From Aquificaceae bacterium (GTDB lineage Bacteria > Aquificota > Aquificia > Aquificales > Aquificaceae): a stretch of DNA of 64,000 bases. Both the position numbers and the translations under genes were made by a program. The stretch covers positions 186,001-250,000 of the forward strand of contig JALWVU010000055.1 in the NCBI GenBank assembly GCA_027079305.1, read 5' to 3'. A model generated the notes under the pieces. The model ran no database searches. It saw nothing but the letters and a program-made list of their open reading frames with translations, and was not told the DNA's origin. Of this stretch, positions 3,733-14,130 are shown in pieces. Position 1 is the stretch's first letter. Each line of letters starts with the position of its first letter.

Positions 3733-4980
3733 TTATAGTTTACAACGCTCCCTGATAAGCCTGTTAAAGACCTCCCCCCTCTCCACGTAGCTGGAGAACA
3801 TGTCAAAGGAAGAACATCCTGGAGAGAAGAGGATGTAGTCTCCTGGAACAGCTGAGCGCAGGGCCTCCTCAACCGCTTCCTCTAAAGAGTTCAGTGTTCT
3901 GATATTAGAACCACCGCCGAAGGCGGTCCTCATGGTATCCTTCGTCTCACCTATCAGAAGGGCAAGCTTTACTTTCCCCTCGACGAGATCTCTTAGGGGA
4001 GAGAAGTCCGCGCCCTTGTCCTTTCCGCCTGCTATGAGTATAACGCTCTGGTCTGGGAAGCTCTCTAAGGCGGACTTTAAGGAGTTGGGAGTGGTGGACT
4101 TGGAGTCGTTGTAGATCTCCACACCTCTGAAGTTGGCGACAAGTTCCATCCTGAAGGGAAGCCCTCTAAAACTTCTCAGAGTTTCCCTTATATCCTCCGT
4201 ATGGACTCCAAAGTGCCTTGCCAGAACCGCCGCGGTTATAGCGTTCCTGAGGTTGTGCTCCCCCCTCAGGCTCAGGTCCATGGTCTCGAAGAGCTTCTCA
4301 CCGCGGAAGATGATATCTCCCTCCCTGATTTCCACCTCTTTTTTAAGACTTATCCTCCTCGCTCTTGTGGGAGTGCTGAGCACCTCTTCCTGGTCGAGAA
4401 CCTCCACGAAAAGATTCTCTTCCTTCTGCCTTCTGAATATGTTGTGCTTACTGAACAGATAGTCCTCCATATCCGGATGCCAGTCGAGATGGTCCTGGGA
4501 AAAATTCAGGAAGGCTCCCGCAACAGGTCTGAAGGTGGAGAGTGTCTTTCCCTGAAAGGAGGAGACCTCTACAACTGCGAGAGCCTCAGGGTCCTTCAGG
4601 GCTACTTCCGATAGGGGCGTTCCCGCGTTCCCGGCTTCGTAGACCCGTGGGAACTTCTTTGAGAGCATAAGATAGGTGAGCCTCGTGGTGGTGGACTTCC
4701 CGTCCGTCCCAGTTATGGCTATCGCCCTGCCTTTGAAAAATCTCCAGGCAAGCTCGAGCTCCCCTATCACTTCTATGTCCTTTTTCAGGGCTTCCTTCCA
4801 AAGGGGATGTCTGGGCGGTATTCCCGGAGACAGGACCACAGTGTCTACCGAGTCTAAGAACTCCTCCCACCTGTCTCCTCTGGCGTCGTCTCCTGAGTAG
4901 ACCTCGTAGCCTTTATTCCTGAGAAGCTCTACCGCGGCACGTCCGCTCTTCCCCAATCCCCAGACGAGGTAGGTTTTCAT
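3733..4980 (-). CDS. murD: UDP-N-acetylmuramoyl-L-alanine--D-glutamate ligase
   Basis: MurD adds D-glutamate to UDP-MurNAc-L-Ala in the cytosolic stage of peptidoglycan synthesis. The 415-residue protein has the N-terminal Rossmann-like UDP-binding domain with GLGKSG (8-13), the Mur ligase P-loop ITGTDGKSTT (89-98), the HNLRNAITAA block and the YNDSKSTTPNS segment of the central domain, then a Rossmann C-terminal domain. Its ATG overlaps the stop of the upstream Doc toxin gene in an ATGA, implying translational coupling. No other mur gene is adjacent, so it stands outside a normal dcw cluster. Confidence 0.97.
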   Translation of the reverse strand: MKTYLVWGLGKSGRAAVELLRNKGYEVYSGDDARGDRWEEFLDSVDTVVLSPGIPPRHPLWKEALKKDIEVIGELELAWRFFKGRAIAITGTDGKSTTTRLTYLMLSKKFPRVYEAGNAGTPLSEVALKDPEALAVVEVSSFQGKTLSTFRPVAGAFLNFSQDHLDWHPDMEDYLFSKHNIFRRQKEENLFVEVLDQEEVLSTPTRARRISLKKEVEIREGDIIFRGEKLFETMDLSLRGEHNLRNAITAAVLARHFGVHTEDIRETLRSFRGLPFRMELVANFRGVEIYNDSKSTTPNSLKSALESFPDQSVILIAGGKDKGADFSPLRDLVEGKVKLALLIGETKDTMRTAFGGGSNIRTLNSLEEAVEEALRSAVPGDYILFSPGCSSFDMFSSYVERGEVFNRLIRERCKL

Positions 4981-5408
4981 GCTCTTACATGAGCGACGGA
5001 TGGTATAGTGCTAACGCATAAGTTGTCAGTAGCAAACAAAAAATTTTTAAGCAAACTCCCAACTTCCTCCCGCCCGAGGGAACCTTCAGCGAATCCCACC
5101 GCAATATCGTAGAGAACATCATCCGGTATACCTGAAGTATCGTAGCGGTTTATCTCCAGAAAGGTAAGCATGGCTATTACGCCGGTTCTCTTGTTACCGT
5201 CTATGAAAGGATGATTTCTGATTATAGCCTCGCAAAGCACAACAGCCTTGGTAATATCGTCTTTATAAAGCTCCTGTCCTTCAAAAGAAGCTTTGGGTTT
5301 GTTCACAGCACTTTCCAGCAGATCGTAGCTCCGGATACCAGTTAAACACTCCTCCCCCAAAATACTGGCCCATATGTAGAGGATGTCAGCAAGGTTAAGG
5401 TATTTCAT
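4977..5408 (-). CDS. doc: Doc-type Fic-fold toxin
   Basis: Doc toxins are Fic-fold enzymes that phosphorylate EF-Tu and stop translation until neutralised. The 143-residue protein carries the catalytic signature H-P-F-I-D-G-N-K-R-T at residues 66-75 with every key position intact, and starts with the family-typical MKYLNLADILYIWA. It overlaps the upstream small ORF by four bases (ATGA) and overlaps the downstream murD start in the same way, so toxin, putative antitoxin and an essential cell-wall gene are on one translationally coupled message. The C-terminal tail after about residue 125 shows no recognisable motif. Confidence 0.88.
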   Translation of the reverse strand: MKYLNLADILYIWASILGEECLTGIRSYDLLESAVNKPKASFEGQELYKDDITKAVVLCEAIIRNHPFIDGNKRTGVIAMLTFLEINRYDTSGIPDDVLYDIAVGFAEGSLGREEVGSLLKNFLFATDNLCVSTIPSVAHVRA

Positions 5409-5587: not shown

Positions 5588-5662
5588 TGGAGGCGACGGG
5601 CGGATTCGAACCGCCGTAGAAGGGATTTGCAGTCCCTCGCCTAACCGCTCGGCCACGTCGCC
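5588..5662 (-). tRNA. tRNA-Cys (GCA)
   Basis: The minus strand folds as a cloverleaf: acceptor GGCGACG pairs with CGTCGCC, the D-arm is GCC...GGC, the anticodon stem AGGGA/TCCCT encloses a loop with anticodon GCA, and the T-arm GGCGG-TTCGAAT-CCGCC is intact. A discriminator T and CCA are encoded at the 3' end. It lies 15 bases upstream of the antitoxin-like ORF in the same direction, so it may be the first element of the tRNA-antitoxin-doc-murD transcript. Confidence 0.96.
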
Positions 5663-5717: not shown

Positions 5718-6602
5718 TCACTCAACTCCCAGCTTCTCTCTTATAAACCTCGCCGCCCTCACTATAGCGTCCTTGGCTGCGAGATCGTCCGCAAACTTCC
5801 TTCTGTTGCCGTTCCTGAAGTCGAAGCCCCTTCCAACGCCCGGGTAAACCACTATGTAAGCCTCCCTTCCCTTACTCTTCAGATAGTCTATGGCCATGAG
5901 AGCGGGTCTGAGCCTCTGATACTGCTCGTCCCTTCCCACGAAGAACATAACGGGAACCTTGACCTTCTCTATGTCCTCGTGATACCTGTAGACCTGCATA
6001 GGTTCGGGCCTGTTGGGGTCCTGGAGGTGGGGATAATACCCGACCCAGCAGGCTATGTCCTTCACCTGCCTATTCTTGGCCACGAGAAGCCTGAGAGAGT
6101 AGAAACCTCCCCTCGTGAGACCGTAAACGCAGACCTTCTTGGGGTGTATGTCCTCCCTCGAGAGGGCGTAATCCAGAACCACGTTCGCATCGTCCTCAAC
6201 CACCGGATCGTGGTAGATGGGGAATCTCTCTATGAACCTACCCGTATAAAGGTCGGGAGCAACAACCACAAAGCCCCTCGCTGCGAGCCTCTTGGCGTGA
6301 AGCTGGAAGAGGTCGTCGAGCCCTCTCCTCCCGTGGAGAAATAGAACTCCCGGAAATTTCCCCTTCTTCTCGGGCCTTGCCACCATCACGGGTATCTCCA
6401 CGTCCCCGTTGTTCACCGTGACCCACTCCACTTCAACCTTGTAGTTTCTGGGTGGCTCTATGTAGCCCTCCTTCCACCATCTCTCGTCCCACCACCAGGC
6501 TTTTTCACCCCTCTCATCCAGCTTCTTGATCAAGTTTTCTATGAACTCGTCCGCGTGGGAAAGGGAGAAAAGAACTGTCAATAAGACTACCAAGAGTCTC
6601 AT
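5718..6602 (-). CDS. Dienelactone-hydrolase-family protein with altered catalytic residues
   Basis: The 294-residue protein has a signal peptide (hydrophobic residues 2-15) and an alpha/beta-hydrolase fold of the dienelactone hydrolase family: LFLHGRRG (88-95), VVAPDLYTGR, the nucleophile elbow VYGLTRGG (159-166), VMFFVGRDEQ with the acid Asp at about 225, and VVYPGVGRGFDF near 251-262. In active relatives the elbow is GxCxGG or GxSxGG and the last motif is PGxGHGF. Here the nucleophile position is Thr163 and the His position is Arg258, so the usual triad is incomplete. It is probably an exported binding or scaffold protein, or an enzyme with altered chemistry. A good AAGGAGG site precedes the ATG. 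Confidence 0.85.
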   Translation of the reverse strand: MRLLVVLLTVLFSLSHADEFIENLIKKLDERGEKAWWWDERWWKEGYIEPPRNYKVEVEWVTVNNGDVEIPVMVARPEKKGKFPGVLFLHGRRGLDDLFQLHAKRLAARGFVVVAPDLYTGRFIERFPIYHDPVVEDDANVVLDYALSREDIHPKKVCVYGLTRGGFYSLRLLVAKNRQVKDIACWVGYYPHLQDPNRPEPMQVYRYHEDIEKVKVPVMFFVGRDEQYQRLRPALMAIDYLKSKGREAYIVVYPGVGRGFDFRNGNRRKFADDLAAKDAIVRAARFIREKLGVE

Positions 6603-6674
6603 GGCTTACCCTCCTTGTGTTTTCTCCTCATGTTATGTTTAAATCTTTAACGTTCTTATTCTCTTGCAAGTATA

Positions 6675-7061
6675 TTATTTCTTCCTCTTTTTCTTACCTT
6701 CGGAGAACTTTTTAATTAAAAAAGCTGTCGATAGGCCGGTTAAAAAGCCAACAAGTCCTCCGGCTGCGACGAGCCCCAGCAAGCTACCTGGGATGAGGCC
6801 CGAGAGATTGGAAACGAGTTTTCCGCTTTCAACATCTTTTAAAATTTCCTTCAGGTCTTCTATCGTGAAGTCTTCACCCTCTTCCGCTTCCTCAACCAGT
6901 GTTTTCAGCCTTTCTAAAGCTTCTAAAGCCTGCCCTCTCGGTTCATTCTTACCATTCTCCCATCTGTTGACGGTTGTGTATCCAACACCTAAGAGTTTGG
7001 CAAACTCTTCTTGCGTCAGCCCCAGCTTCTTTCTGAGTTCTTTTATTTCTTTTCCCGTCAT
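6675..7061 (-). CDS. Membrane-anchored XRE-family DNA-binding regulator
   Basis: Residues 3-55 of this 128-residue protein are a classical helix-turn-helix of the XRE/Cro type (IKELRKKLGLTQEEFAKLLGV, then the recognition helix TTVNRWENGK). A charged linker (55-85) leads into a glycine-rich hydrophobic segment at about 88-116 that looks like a membrane helix or hairpin, then a poly-lysine tail. A repressor tethered to the membrane could couple membrane state to transcription. It is the last of six same-strand genes rich in membrane proteins, 27 bases after DUF445. Confidence 0.85.
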   Translation of the reverse strand: MTGKEIKELRKKLGLTQEEFAKLLGVGYTTVNRWENGKNEPRGQALEALERLKTLVEEAEEGEDFTIEDLKEILKDVESGKLVSNLSGLIPGSLLGLVAAGGLVGFLTGLSTAFLIKKFSEGKKKRKK

Positions 7062-7088
7062 GTTTTAGAGTATATACCATACGATTTA

Positions 7089-7883
7089 TCAGGCCATAAT
7101 CAGCTGGAAAGCACCGAGCAGTAGACCTACGACAAATCCCAAGACAGTTCCGTTTACCCTTATCCACTGAAGTTCATCCCAAGAAGCTTTCTTGACAGCG
7201 GAGATGAATTCTTCATCCGAGATACTGTCTATCCTGTTTTTTATAAGTTCAAGAAGGTAGGAGTGCTTTTCTGCTATGAGCTTTATGAGATACTTTTTCA
7301 TAAGCTGATCCGCTTTTTCCTTTAACTTTTCTTCGCTCCTCAGTCTCGTAAAAGCTTCTTCAATCCACTCATCAAGCTTATTCTCCATCACAGAAGTGAG
7401 TGTTTCCTCTATAGCCTCCATTATCGCTTTGATCAGCGGGCTTGGAATTATGGTCGTAGAAGGCATTAATTTAGCAAGGATATCTCCATAATCTCCTTTT
7501 CGCCTCCTCATCACCTGAAGAATTAGGTCCTTTATTTTGGCCTTCACCTCAGGCGTGTCTATCTGATCTATCACAAACTCAAAGTTTATCTTCTCTATCT
7601 CCCTGGCTATGTATTCCTTATTGAGCAAAAACTCTCCCACAAACTCGGTAACCTTCTCCGAAAGTTCTCCCCGCTTTCTTCTTAGCAGATCCGTGTGTGG
7701 TCCCAGCTTCCTGAAAAGCCCATAAACCGCATAGGCGTCCGCTATTGCACCAACCGCCGCAGCCTCAAAGGCGGTCTTTAAAACGAGGAGCCAGCTGAGA
7801 TGAGGATATGCATGGTAAAAGTATGCGGTGAGGACAAAGAGGACCAGAACCGTAAGGAGTAGGAAATTAACTTTCTTTTCCAT
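7089..7883 (-). CDS. DUF445 family membrane protein
   Basis: The 264-residue protein has two N-terminal hydrophobic segments with the DUF445 hallmark EAAAVGAIADAYAVYGLFR (about 39-57), a long charged helical middle with phage-tail-like and coiled-coil character (KVTEFVGEFLLNKEYI), and the C-terminal LQWIRVNGTVLGFVVGLLLGAFQ membrane anchor typical of the family (B. subtilis YheB). The molecular function is unknown. It is separated from the upstream 282-aa gene by 35 bases and from the XRE gene by 27 bases. No clear Shine-Dalgarno sequence is visible. Confidence 0.88.
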   Translation of the reverse strand: MEKKVNFLLLTVLVLFVLTAYFYHAYPHLSWLLVLKTAFEAAAVGAIADAYAVYGLFRKLGPHTDLLRRKRGELSEKVTEFVGEFLLNKEYIAREIEKINFEFVIDQIDTPEVKAKIKDLILQVMRRRKGDYGDILAKLMPSTTIIPSPLIKAIMEAIEETLTSVMENKLDEWIEEAFTRLRSEEKLKEKADQLMKKYLIKLIAEKHSYLLELIKNRIDSISDEEFISAVKKASWDELQWIRVNGTVLGFVVGLLLGAFQLIMA

Positions 7884-7918
7884 AGCAATTCAGGTTGTGT
7901 ATTTGTTATTAGTGTTAC

Positions 7919-8767
7919 TTAGGATATTTTTATTAAGTGCACACCTTCACTCACATCTTTTGTCAGATCCTTCCACTCTTGGAAAGAGAGGCCAAGATTT
8001 TTCACAGTTTCTACCTCTTTTTTATAGCTCCAGAATCTTTCTATATCTACTTTAAGAAATTCAAGTTTATCCAGCTTATCTTGTAGAGGGTTTGTTTTAT
8101 CTACCAATTGACCATATACATCCTTTACTCTATCATAAGCTTTTTGATACTCAAACGCGGATTGGTCGACCTCATCAAGCTCAAAAAGTAGTCGTGAGTA
8201 TTCAGCGTAAGCAAGCATGTATAGTTTTAAAGGTTCACTAACTACTTCTGGGTTTGAACCATTAAAAAGTTTTGTGAAGGCATAGCTTATATATGTATCA
8301 TAAACAGCCACAGCTCTTCTGAAAGTTGTTAGCCTCTCCGTAAGAAGCTCCCATCTGAGATTTTTATCCTTTATCAAATCCTCAGAAAAGAGCAGGCCGG
8401 ACTTTAAATCCTTGAATACTTCTATAGCTTTTATAATCTCCACATCTTGTCTTATTCTTTGTATTTCCGCAAAAAGTTTATCAAGTTTTTCACTGAGCTT
8501 TGATATCTGCTTTGAGAGGTAATATGTAGACAATGCCACAGCTGCCAAGGTGAGAACACCAATACCAACATTCACGTAAGGCATTAAAGGACCTAAAGAG
8601 CTCATCAATCCCTGTGTAGTCAAATTTCCTACCTCTCTCATATGAGCAACTATTTTTCCTCCATTTGCTTCTCTTATTACTCCGCCTGTAACTTTATATA
8701 TTCCCTGCTTTAAACCCTCCAATATAACAGGATCGTTAGGAGGAGAAACCACAATTTCATGCGGCAT
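7919..8767 (-). CDS. Unknown membrane/coiled-coil protein
   Basis: I do not recognise a named family. The 282-residue protein has an N-terminal domain with the pattern GIYKVTGGVIREANGGKIVAH (about 22-42), one membrane helix at about 64-84, a coiled coil of lysine and glutamate heptads (about 85-115), and a helical C-terminal domain of about 160 residues. It starts at an ATG with a good GGAGG site nine bases upstream, 13 bases after the UPF0174-like gene, so the two are almost certainly co-expressed. The DNA is visibly more AT-rich than most of the window, with many AAA, ATA and TTT codons, suggesting transfer. Confidence 0.75.
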   Translation of the reverse strand: MPHEIVVSPPNDPVILEGLKQGIYKVTGGVIREANGGKIVAHMREVGNLTTQGLMSSLGPLMPYVNVGIGVLTLAAVALSTYYLSKQISKLSEKLDKLFAEIQRIRQDVEIIKAIEVFKDLKSGLLFSEDLIKDKNLRWELLTERLTTFRRAVAVYDTYISYAFTKLFNGSNPEVVSEPLKLYMLAYAEYSRLLFELDEVDQSAFEYQKAYDRVKDVYGQLVDKTNPLQDKLDKLEFLKVDIERFWSYKKEVETVKNLGLSFQEWKDLTKDVSEGVHLIKIS

Positions 8768-8780
8768 AATTCTACACCTC

Positions 8781-9713
8781 CTATTCTGGAAGATCCTTTA
8801 AAGCTTCTATAGTTTTATGAACATTGTGGCGTAGCGTATATATATAGACTACCAAAGGTATGTATTTATCATATTCTCTAGGGTTCAAAAGCTTTGACAC
8901 AAGAACGAGCGTAGAAATAATGACTATTATCCAACCAAGTGGTCCAAGAACTGTTGCTACAACCCTTTGTATCATTGCATTTACAGCTAAAGACAAACCA
9001 GAACCTGTAAGCAAAGCCCCTGTATAACTCCATATACTGTTTATTACTATGGCAGTTAATATGTGGAAGTTAAAGCCTAGGGCTTGTCTCAAAGCTATTA
9101 ATCCCCCATGAGTAAGTATATAACCTACATTAACTCCTGATATATCTACACTTTCCATGCTAGCATATCTTTGAAGGTTATTTACAATTTGTTTAACTAT
9201 ATTCTCTCTATCATTTTTGGGCATAGTCCTCAAGTATGCATCTAATAGCAAACCCACTATAATTTCCTCAATCTTAACACTCTGTTCACAAGTTAGTTCT
9301 ATGTCTTTGTTATCCTCCCGAATTTTGCGTAAACTTCTTCTCCATTCCTCATCTTTGAGCTCTTTTGCTTTTCTTTCCAAGGCAAGGGTTAAGGCTTTAA
9401 CACATTCCTGTAATTGTCTTGGGTACTTATCCATATCCCTGAATTTGTCTACAATCCCCATACCCTCAGTTATAGCATCATTCATTTTCCCTATAATAGC
9501 TTTTATTAGGTCATATTTAATTGGTTTCGTAGTGTTGAAGTTTAACATCGAACATAAATTTCTTTTTTCTTGTTTATATTGTTCATCCTGTATACTAAGA
9601 TACTCTTTTCCAAGTTCTGATATAGCTAACATCTCCTTTAATGTTTCTTCATCAGCGCTCTTTAAGATATCCCAAATGCAATTTTTGAGCGTTGGCTCCT
9701 TTTGACTCATCAT
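8781..9713 (-). CDS. UPF0174/YaaW-like protein with hydrophobic hairpin
   Basis: The 310-residue protein has a soluble, charged N-terminal two thirds and a hydrophobic stretch at about 215-275 with GSGLSLAVNAMIQRVVATVLGP and LGWIIVIISTLVLVSK, followed by KYIPLVVYIYTLR. This order resembles the C-terminus of the UPF0174 (E. coli YaaW, H. pylori HP1587) family as I recall it, where a G(P)xGW hydrophobic hairpin precedes an IPxVxxIxxLR segment. The N-terminal segment (LKNCIWDILKSADEETLKEML) may correspond to the DUF3944-like start of that family. The function is unknown. The gene is AT-rich and has an AAAGGAGG site before a double ATG. Confidence 0.65.
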   Translation of the reverse strand: MMSQKEPTLKNCIWDILKSADEETLKEMLAISELGKEYLSIQDEQYKQEKRNLCSMLNFNTTKPIKYDLIKAIIGKMNDAITEGMGIVDKFRDMDKYPRQLQECVKALTLALERKAKELKDEEWRRSLRKIREDNKDIELTCEQSVKIEEIIVGLLLDAYLRTMPKNDRENIVKQIVNNLQRYASMESVDISGVNVGYILTHGGLIALRQALGFNFHILTAIVINSIWSYTGALLTGSGLSLAVNAMIQRVVATVLGPLGWIIVIISTLVLVSKLLNPREYDKYIPLVVYIYTLRHNVHKTIEALKDLPE

Positions 9714-9714
9714 T

Positions 9715-9951
9715 TCACCTCCTTTTTCTTCCTTTATGCACCCTCACCCTCCACGGTGGCCTAAGCTCTATCTTCCCCCACAACTTTGGAGGCTTCCAGG
9801 CACTTGTAGGCATCTTGTAGCCACCGCCGAGGTCTATAAAGTCTTCGTTTTCATCAAGAGGAATGCTTGTTTTCTTGAACGGCTTTTCCCTTCGCTTTTT
9901 GAAATATCCAAAGAGAGCCAGTCCAAGGAGAATCTTGAGCAGATTCCCCAT
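9715..9951 (-). CDS. Small membrane-anchored protein, unknown
   Basis: This 78-residue protein (starting MGNLLKILLG) has a short N-terminal hydrophobic helix (about 3-15) followed by basic residues and a soluble tail ending in a run of K and R. An AAGGAGG site lies six bases before the ATG at 9951, better than an in-frame start 21 bases further upstream. Its stop is one base from the start of the UPF0174-like gene, and it follows the DUF1232 gene by 24 bases, so it belongs to the same operon. No family is recognised. Confidence 0.65.
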   Translation of the reverse strand: MGNLLKILLGLALFGYFKKRREKPFKKTSIPLDENEDFIDLGGGYKMPTSAWKPPKLWGKIELRPPWRVRVHKGRKRR

Positions 9952-9975
9952 TACTTCCCTCCTTATCTGCAAAGA

Positions 9976-10437
9976 TTATACACTTTCCGGGAAGATGTTC
10001 TCACCGAAAGCCTCAGTTATGAGCTTCTTTAAACTTTCATCTTTTGTATTTTCTGCTTTCCACAAGGCGTAATCTTTAACGTCCTCCGATATCATCTTCC
10101 AGACGAACATGAGCATGGCAAGGTCATCCATCTGGCCGAGGATGGGGATTATGTCAGGTATAAGGTCTATAGGGTTGAGTATATATAAGAGAGCTATAAC
10201 CACCGCTACTACTGTCCTATAGGGAAGCTCGGTATAATCACCGTTCCAGTAATCTTTGATTAGTATCATAAGAAGCTTTACCTTCCCGATCTCCCTGCTC
10301 AGGATAGAGCTTTTTTCCACCTTATCGTAAATCCTGTCCGACTCCTTTACAGCCTTCTCGATATCTTTCTCGGAAGTTCTTTCGCTCAATCTTTCGAACT
10401 CTGCCCTGATCTGATCCTCGGAAATCCTTTCGTTCAT
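9976..10437 (-). CDS. DUF1232 (YkvA-like) membrane protein
   Basis: The 153-residue protein carries the DUF1232 core: a membrane helix with LLYILNPIDLIPDIIPILGQMDDLAML, in which the NPIDLIPD and GxxDD elements are the family signature. The N-terminal third is acidic and helical. DUF1232 proteins are of unknown function, often near membrane or stress genes. The start at 10437 is chosen because GGAGG lies nine bases upstream; the longer reading frame lacks a site. It is the first gene of the minus-strand membrane locus that runs to 6675, and is divergent from the gene at 10534. Confidence 0.85.
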   Translation of the reverse strand: MNERISEDQIRAEFERLSERTSEKDIEKAVKESDRIYDKVEKSSILSREIGKVKLLMILIKDYWNGDYTELPYRTVVAVVIALLYILNPIDLIPDIIPILGQMDDLAMLMFVWKMISEDVKDYALWKAENTKDESLKKLITEAFGENIFPESV

Positions 10438-10479
10438 CTTTACCACCTCCTCAAGATCTCCCCAATAATATAGCGAATG

Positions 10480-10491
10480 CAATATATATTG
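10480..10491. promoter_or_regulatory. Perfect 12-base palindrome in a divergent promoter region
   Basis: CAATATATATTG is a perfect inverted repeat lying between the DUF1232 gene and the divergent gene at 10534. It could be an operator, for example for the XRE-type regulator encoded at the end of the same locus, but a chance AT-rich palindrome is possible. Confidence 0.3.
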
Positions 10492-10533
10492 TCAAGTCTT
10501 GAAATATACCCTTTGCGAAATAAATTTGTAAAC

Positions 10534-11100
10534 ATGGTCTTCAACGATTACCTCTTCAGATTGCCCTTCTATGCCCCTGAGAACATAGAGTTCATACTCG
10601 GGATAGACCTTATAACCGATTCCCCTTCCTCCTGGCTTGTGCTATCCCCTTTCAGCGGTAGGGTGAAGTTTATAAGGGAATACGATGAGGGGTTCTGCCC
10701 CTTCCCTGAGAATCTTTCAGTTCTCGTAAACATAGAAAGTATCAGGCCAGCTGTGAGTATGGCTTACCTCAGGGTTTTCAGAGAATCGGGAGCTCCCCTC
10801 AAAAGGTTCGTGGCCTGTTACCTGATAAACACACAGAGCGAGGAGTGGTTCGTTACTCAGCTCAGGACAGCTGAAGAGATAGTGGGAAGATGGAAAGTTA
10901 GTCCCAAAGAGAGGCTTAGAGTCTTTTTAGAATATGCCAAGCTCCTGAGGCTCTGGGGTGTTGATCCTGCAAGGCCAAGATGGGAGAGGGGAAAAGATCC
11001 CTTACACAGTTACATGGCGGAGAGGAAATCTGTAGGTCTTGAGGAGATAAGGGCTTACAGAGATGAGCTGACCTTTACAGATCCGAGCTACGAAGCCTAA
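10534..11100 (+). CDS. Hypothetical protein
   Basis: The likely product starts MVFNDYLFRLPF and has 188 residues, with no signal peptide, no membrane helix and no motif that I recognise. The sequence looks like a soluble mixed alpha/beta protein with a C-terminal helical, arginine-rich part (RWERGKDPLHSYMAERKS). The upstream extension to 10477 crosses the divergent promoter region and is less likely. Codon use matches the core genes around it. A small open frame (11072-11254) overlaps its end in another frame. Confidence 0.72.
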   Translation: MVFNDYLFRLPFYAPENIEFILGIDLITDSPSSWLVLSPFSGRVKFIREYDEGFCPFPENLSVLVNIESIRPAVSMAYLRVFRESGAPLKRFVACYLINTQSEEWFVTQLRTAEEIVGRWKVSPKERLRVFLEYAKLLRLWGVDPARPRWERGKDPLHSYMAERKSVGLEEIRAYRDELTFTDPSYEA

Positions 11101-11254
11101 CCTGGAAATAATCTCTGCCAGCAGAGGTGTCTTCGATCCCTTACAAAGAGAAGAGCTCATGAGGGCGAGGGCAAGAAGTCTGGGTGTGGATTATGAAGAA
11201 GTAATGAGCGCCTGGGACGTGAGATGGTATCTGGAGAGGGTGGCCTGCAGGTAG
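11072..11254 (+). other. Possible small ORF without a canonical start
   Basis: This frame is open for 60 codons after a TGA at 11069-11071 and ends at TAG 11252-11254, 19 bases before tgt. The predicted peptide is charged and helical (for example EELMRARARSLGVDYEEV) and looks coding, but it has no ATG, GTG or TTG at a sensible place; CTG at 11102, one base after the stop of the preceding gene, is the best candidate. It could be a coupled small gene, or the remnant of a longer C-terminus of the preceding gene after a frameshift. Confidence 0.35.
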
Positions 11255-11261
11255 AGGTTAA

Positions 11262-14130
<2,869 letters not shown>

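Follow-up and report, generated by a model that had tools for sequence, protein, structure and literature searches.

Six open reading frames lie consecutively on the minus strand between positions 6675 and 10437 of the window, the whole 64,000-nucleotide stretch of DNA analysed here, just where an earlier note made from the letters had placed them. In transcriptional order they encode a DUF1232 membrane protein (9976-10437), a 77-aa protein (9715-9948), a 310-aa protein (8781-9713), a 282-aa protein (7919-8767), a DUF445 membrane protein (7089-7883) and an XRE regulator with a C-terminal hydrophobic helix (6675-7061), and the gaps between the genes are, in the same order, 27, 1, 13, 35 and 27 bp. 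The gaps are short, as the earlier note had it, and of the good ribosome sites it had given to the set, clear ones stand ahead of several of the six genes. The description as a six-gene unit holds for these genes but leaves out a seventh, divergent gene on the plus strand (10477 to about 11251, start uncertain) that also belongs to the unit. It is a frameshifted homologue of a 254-aa protein of another genome (G023, below): two matches to that protein, covering its residues 1-204 and 202-254, lie in different frames, and the frameshift falls near position 11097.

Pfam confirmed the DUF1232, DUF445 and HTH_3 domains. The DUF1232 protein scored 48.5 bits (E 7e-13) against the PF06803 cut-off of 23 and the DUF445 protein 129.8 bits (E 3e-37) against the PF04286 cut-off of 33.8, which makes both members of these families, and HTH_3 was found in the XRE protein with E 3e-16; the 77-, 310- and 282-aa proteins had no Pfam match above cut-off. 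No described function was found for DUF445 or DUF1232, in agreement with the earlier reading. The label UPF0174-like, previously attached to the 310-aa protein, is not supported by Pfam, the UPF0174/DUF3944 domain being absent from it at E up to 1; a DUF3944 annotation is carried by plasmid relatives of its homologue in G105 (below). Hydropathy indicated a hydrophobic helix in each of the DUF1232, 310-aa and 282-aa proteins and two in DUF445. The C-terminal helix claimed for the XRE regulator was observed in the hydropathy profile of its homologue in a congener (G007), and the corresponding segment is conserved in the window protein, whereas the 77-aa protein, taken earlier for a membrane protein, has a short hydrophobic N-terminus and nothing more. 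The AT-richness of the two middle genes is real: their GC is 0.35 and 0.37, versus 0.43-0.48 in the other four and 0.54 in the flanking genes, and GC at third codon positions (GC3) is 0.30-0.31, 0.47-0.55 and 0.71-0.74, respectively.

The two AT-rich genes

The PADLOC JukA profile matched the C-terminal half of the 310-aa protein (residues 144-300, E 1.2e-9), the N-terminal half being unmatched, and the PADLOC JukB profile matched residues 10-48 of the 282-aa protein (E 1.6e-6). With hhalign, the JukA alignment matched plasmid JukA proteins recognised by PADLOC (JukA E below 1e-65) with a probability of 97.9% (E 3.9e-13), and the JukB alignment matched a clear JukB with 96.8% over its first 101 columns; for JukB the sequence match is convincing for the first ~100 residues only. 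Searched against the PDB (E up to 0.1), the JukB family profile had as its sole match the solved JukB structure 9jht (E 1.2e-9), and Foldseek ranked the two chains of 9jht first among 350,542 for the predicted structure of the 282-aa protein (probability 0.99, E 0.005-0.011), a model of poor quality (mean pLDDT 56.6). A sequence search of the PDB found no solved JukA, and the Foldseek search with the poor model of the 310-aa protein (pLDDT 51.6) had no match, to 9jht or otherwise. From the matches to profiles and structures we assign the 310-aa protein as a divergent JukA and predicted sensor, and the 282-aa protein as a divergent JukB and predicted membrane effector.

The pair resembles Juk in the adjacency and order of the JukA-like and JukB-like genes, in the conserved JukB N-terminal motif PxIxEGL..G...GGVIRxA...GKIVxHL, and in having the solved JukB 9jht as the best fold match of its poor model. 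It differs from Juk in its strong divergence, with 21-22% identity when aligned with clear JukA and JukB, and in its setting, a shell of four genes that includes a regulator. The window pair also comes from thermophilic Aquificota. The phages with which Juk has been associated are nucleus-forming jumbo phages, and to our knowledge none has been described in thermophilic Aquificota.

Homologous genes stand side by side in the same order in G105, a genome of another Aquificota family, where the 331-aa and 298-aa products matched PADLOC JukA (E 9.7e-10) and JukB (E 2e-12); this is a draft genome with 7% contamination, and no shell was seen on the 5.2-kb contig of the pair. JukA matches in the phylum numbered five, including one fragment at a contig end. 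A solitary 266-aa JukA-like gene in G131 (L081:5184-5984) has neither JukB nor DUF445 as a neighbour.

The shell and its slot

The shell is here defined as the genes for DUF1232, the 77-aa protein, DUF445 and the XRE regulator with its membrane helix, and the cassette as the content of the two-gene slot within it. Among the 136 genomes of the phylum that were compared, G023 (contig JALWEG010000031), a MAG from a different genus of Aquificaceae, has the shell genes in identical order and with 66-70% identity to the window (DUF1232 66%, the 77/79-aa protein 69%, DUF445 68%, the C-terminal part of XRE 70%), accompanied by the divergent seventh gene. The gaps are 26, 2 and 27 bp in G023 versus 27, 1 and 27 bp in the window, and each cassette starts 1-2 bp beyond the preceding shell gene. 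Instead of JukA-JukB, the slot of G023 holds two dynamin-like GTPases, LeoA (PADLOC E 1.4e-99) and LeoBC (E 8e-96), a pair of the Eleos/Dynamins defence type (PMC11811056) that is absent from the window and unrelated to JukAB by profile comparison. The LeoA and LeoBC genes have a GC of 0.32-0.345 against 0.44-0.47 in their shell, the cassette being far AT-richer than the shell in both genomes. That the gene order should recur elsewhere had been set beforehand as a test; the shell order recurs in G023 and the JukA-JukB neighbours in G105, and the AT-rich pair has conserved partners.

A domain common to JukA and LeoBC was considered as a reason for the swap. The PADLOC LeoBC profile weakly touches the window JukA (E 0.0023) and an Acinetobacter JukA (E 6.7e-6), but the idea was dropped because hhalign of the two alignments gave a probability of 0.2.

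A smaller version of the locus is found in G007, where the DUF1232 and XRE genes are directly adjacent, 9 bp apart, with no cassette, small protein or DUF445 (70% identity to the window for DUF1232, 72% for the C-terminal region of XRE). The 77-aa protein was found in the window genome (G000) and G023 only among the 136 genomes, and the two loci with this protein are the two that bear a cassette.

Dynamins and Juk proteins share neighbourhoods outside the Aquificaceae loci too: a JukB-like gene on the Nostoc plasmid NZ_CP040300.1 (L167) and a clear JukA gene on the Acinetobacter plasmid NZ_CP051212.1 (L168) both have dynamin-family genes in their vicinity.

Insertion site

In three congeners (G006, G001 and G014) the tgt gene directly neighbours the DLH hydrolase gene at a distance of about 40 bp, and the 4.7 kb that separate the hydrolase gene (5718-6602) from tgt (11274-12404) in the window, positions 6603-11273, are therefore an insertion. 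The G023 and G007 versions lie at other genomic sites. Neither an integrase nor flanking repeats were seen at the island, and the search for direct repeats at its ends found no common word of at least 7 bp between the two flanks. No relatives of the JukA, JukB or DUF445 alignments were found among the viral contigs (viral_contigs) and no match to the window JukA or DUF445 among the plasmids, and these searches rule against carriage by viruses or plasmids. Near carB in G030 there is a remnant consisting of the last ~54 codons of the seventh gene, with 89% DNA identity to G023. Outside the island, a Fic/Doc toxin homologue (4977-5408, minus strand; TIGR01550 over cut-off) has a murD-like gene (3733-4980) on one side and the hydrolase gene on the other, and a small ORF upstream of it overlaps tRNA-Cys (5588-5662).

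Promoter-operator and regulator

Upstream of the DUF1232 gene, the window, G023 and G007 share a promoter of TTGACA, 17 bp and TATATT (10467-10495 in the window, minus strand), in which the end of the spacer, ATATTGCATTYGC, is almost invariant. With up to 3 mismatches the pattern had a single occurrence per genome in these three and none in the rest of the 136; as it was derived from the three loci, their own matches are given by construction and the finding is the absence of other sites. The reversed pattern, used as a control, had zero matches in the same 136 genomes. An inverted repeat lies over the -35 box, TGTCAAGACTTGACA in G023 and TTTCAAGACTTGACA in the window (10490-10504, the promoter and repeat together covering 10467-10504), where it is a candidate XRE operator; G007 has a different palindrome at this position. 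The shared promoter-operator fits an autoregulated operon with the XRE protein as candidate repressor, and its being unique to these operons indirectly supports a tethered XRE protein that would regulate its own expression.

It is very improbable that the locus is instead a module of toxin-antitoxin type, in which the XRE protein as antitoxin restrains a hydrophobic toxin and the whole serves the stability of the island and not phage defence. Such a module would agree with the accessory nature of the island and with the match of the XRE protein to the HTH part of MqsA-type antitoxins, but the score for an MqsA-like type II antitoxin (TIGR03830) was 52.9 bits against a curated cut-off of 61.8, Pfam and NCBIfam profiles found no homologue of a known toxin family in the operon, and both cassettes match known anti-phage proteins. 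With the NCBIfam antitoxin scores below cut-off, the toxin-antitoxin reading was rejected.

DUF445 and DUF1232 in other contexts

G065, a genome of another family, encodes one 573-aa protein whose N-terminal half is JukA-like (PADLOC JukA E 1.9e-11, 34% identical to its counterpart in the window) and whose C-terminal half is DUF445 (Pfam E 1e-33). This fusion is known from one genome, and together with the operon in the window it links DUF445 and JukA in two lineages among the five JukA matches of the phylum. Apparent DUF445 fusions in G093 and G108 turned out to be separate ORFs within one long stop-free open frame. Compared with the DUF445 family (E. coli YjiN type), the window protein is alike in scoring over the PF04286 cut-off and in having membrane helices at both ends. 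It differs in that its subfamily is short, at about 262 aa, carries a GLFxKLGPHT motif and is co-operonic with, or fused to, JukA.

The fusion raises another reading, namely a Juk subtype in which the effector is DUF445, signalled by JukA, with the JukB-like protein and LeoA-LeoBC as alternative or additional arms. The gene for the fusion has no JukB gene beside it, and a review (PMC13282480) describes JukA effectors as diverse and JukA alone as protective in some cases, both of which would agree with an effector DUF445. We nevertheless regard this reading as improbable, since the window also has a JukB, the DUF445 of G023 accompanies dynamins in place of JukA, and DUF445 proteins of the ordinary kind occur widely, in most genomes as solitary genes.

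Relatives of the shell proteins do occur in other contexts, so that these proteins are not confined to defence. Close relatives of DUF445 are solitary in Sulfurihydrogenibium and in an unclassified MAG, with housekeeping genes beside them in Sulfurihydrogenibium-like genomes, and related DUF1232 genes are found in housekeeping loci of family f5. In G075 (L156) a more distant relative of DUF1232 adjoins a cluster of Cas10 and a SAVED protein with Cas1 nearby, and in G062 (L155), G107 (L154) and G090 (L151) DUF1232 repeatedly adjoins a similar conserved gene cluster. In G064 (L149, G064:C15:46000-61318) the Eleos pair LeoA-LeoBC is flanked by two more distant DUF1232 genes, with Cas6 and a CARF protein also present, and this locus is a looser version of the shell-dynamin association in another family. 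A 129-aa DUF445-like ORF at the same locus is weak and below cut-off.

These contexts bear on the main rival explanation, in which the shell serves membrane stress or the envelope and has no part in defence, and JukAB and LeoA-LeoBC were inserted into it independently for the sake of a ready promoter, with no joint working. It accounts for the solitary DUF445 genes and for G007, where the core of the shell stands without a cassette, and it agrees with the housekeeping DUF1232 genes and with the occurrence of dynamin pairs and JukA genes, like DUF445, without the shell. It does not account for the JukA-DUF445 protein of another family or for the repeated choice of membrane-acting defence: the two unrelated cassettes are both known pairs of this kind, they occupy one and the same slot at a distance of 1-2 bp from the gene ahead, and the 77-aa protein is restricted to the two loci that hold them. 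We therefore consider independent insertion into a stress operon rather unlikely.

Discussion

The locus is probably a horizontally acquired anti-phage operon, in which a divergent JukA-JukB pair occupies the exchangeable slot of a conserved, self-regulated shell with DUF445 and the small protein as membrane partners. Juk, the jumbo phage killer, consists of JukA and JukB (Cell 2025, doi 10.1016/j.cell.2025.02.016; account taken from the review PMC13282480). The review describes JukA as the sensor of early phage proteins on the early infection vesicle. The effectors that it recruits include JukB, whose tetrameric pores form on this early phage vesicle. For the operon described here, the computation shows the homologies, the gene order, the cassette exchange, the common promoter, the insertion and the fusion, while the functional steps are inferred. 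The XRE protein would most likely repress the operon promoter and so keep potentially toxic membrane proteins low. Upon infection, JukA may recruit JukB after sensing a structure of the infection located on the membrane or close to it, and JukB would insert, make a pore and permeabilise the target membrane, and in this way the operon could protect the cell against phage. The JukA-DUF445 fusion in a third lineage suggests that DUF445, and probably also the 77-aa protein, most likely anchors or gates the cassette protein at the membrane.

The guess in the earlier note, of a phage-defence module with a pair of proteins acting on membranes, is supported in part by the JukA and JukB matches and by LeoA-LeoBC in the shell of G023. 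Its proposal of an undescribed system has to be narrowed, as Juk and Eleos are already known; what is undescribed is the shell, along with the swapping of cassettes within it. Two elements are new, the shell with its exchangeable slot and the fusion of JukA with DUF445, and the sample is thin, two genomes for the exchange and one for the fusion.

The presence of two different anti-phage pairs in one operon slot means that the operon may hold interchangeable membrane-attacking defences. A broader and more tentative possibility is a defence chassis, that is, a mobile self-regulated membrane-protein operon that takes interchangeable, membrane-acting anti-phage pairs (JukAB or LeoA-LeoBC) and in which DUF445 would generally couple sensors such as JukA to the membrane. 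DUF445 and DUF1232 are widespread membrane families, and the fusion, together with an operon shared with two unrelated defence pairs, gives them a first testable role in phage defence. If whole effector pairs are indeed exchanged while promoter and regulator stay the same, defence systems can be modular at the level of the operon, and the locus would likewise, if true, put Juk in thermophilic Aquificota.
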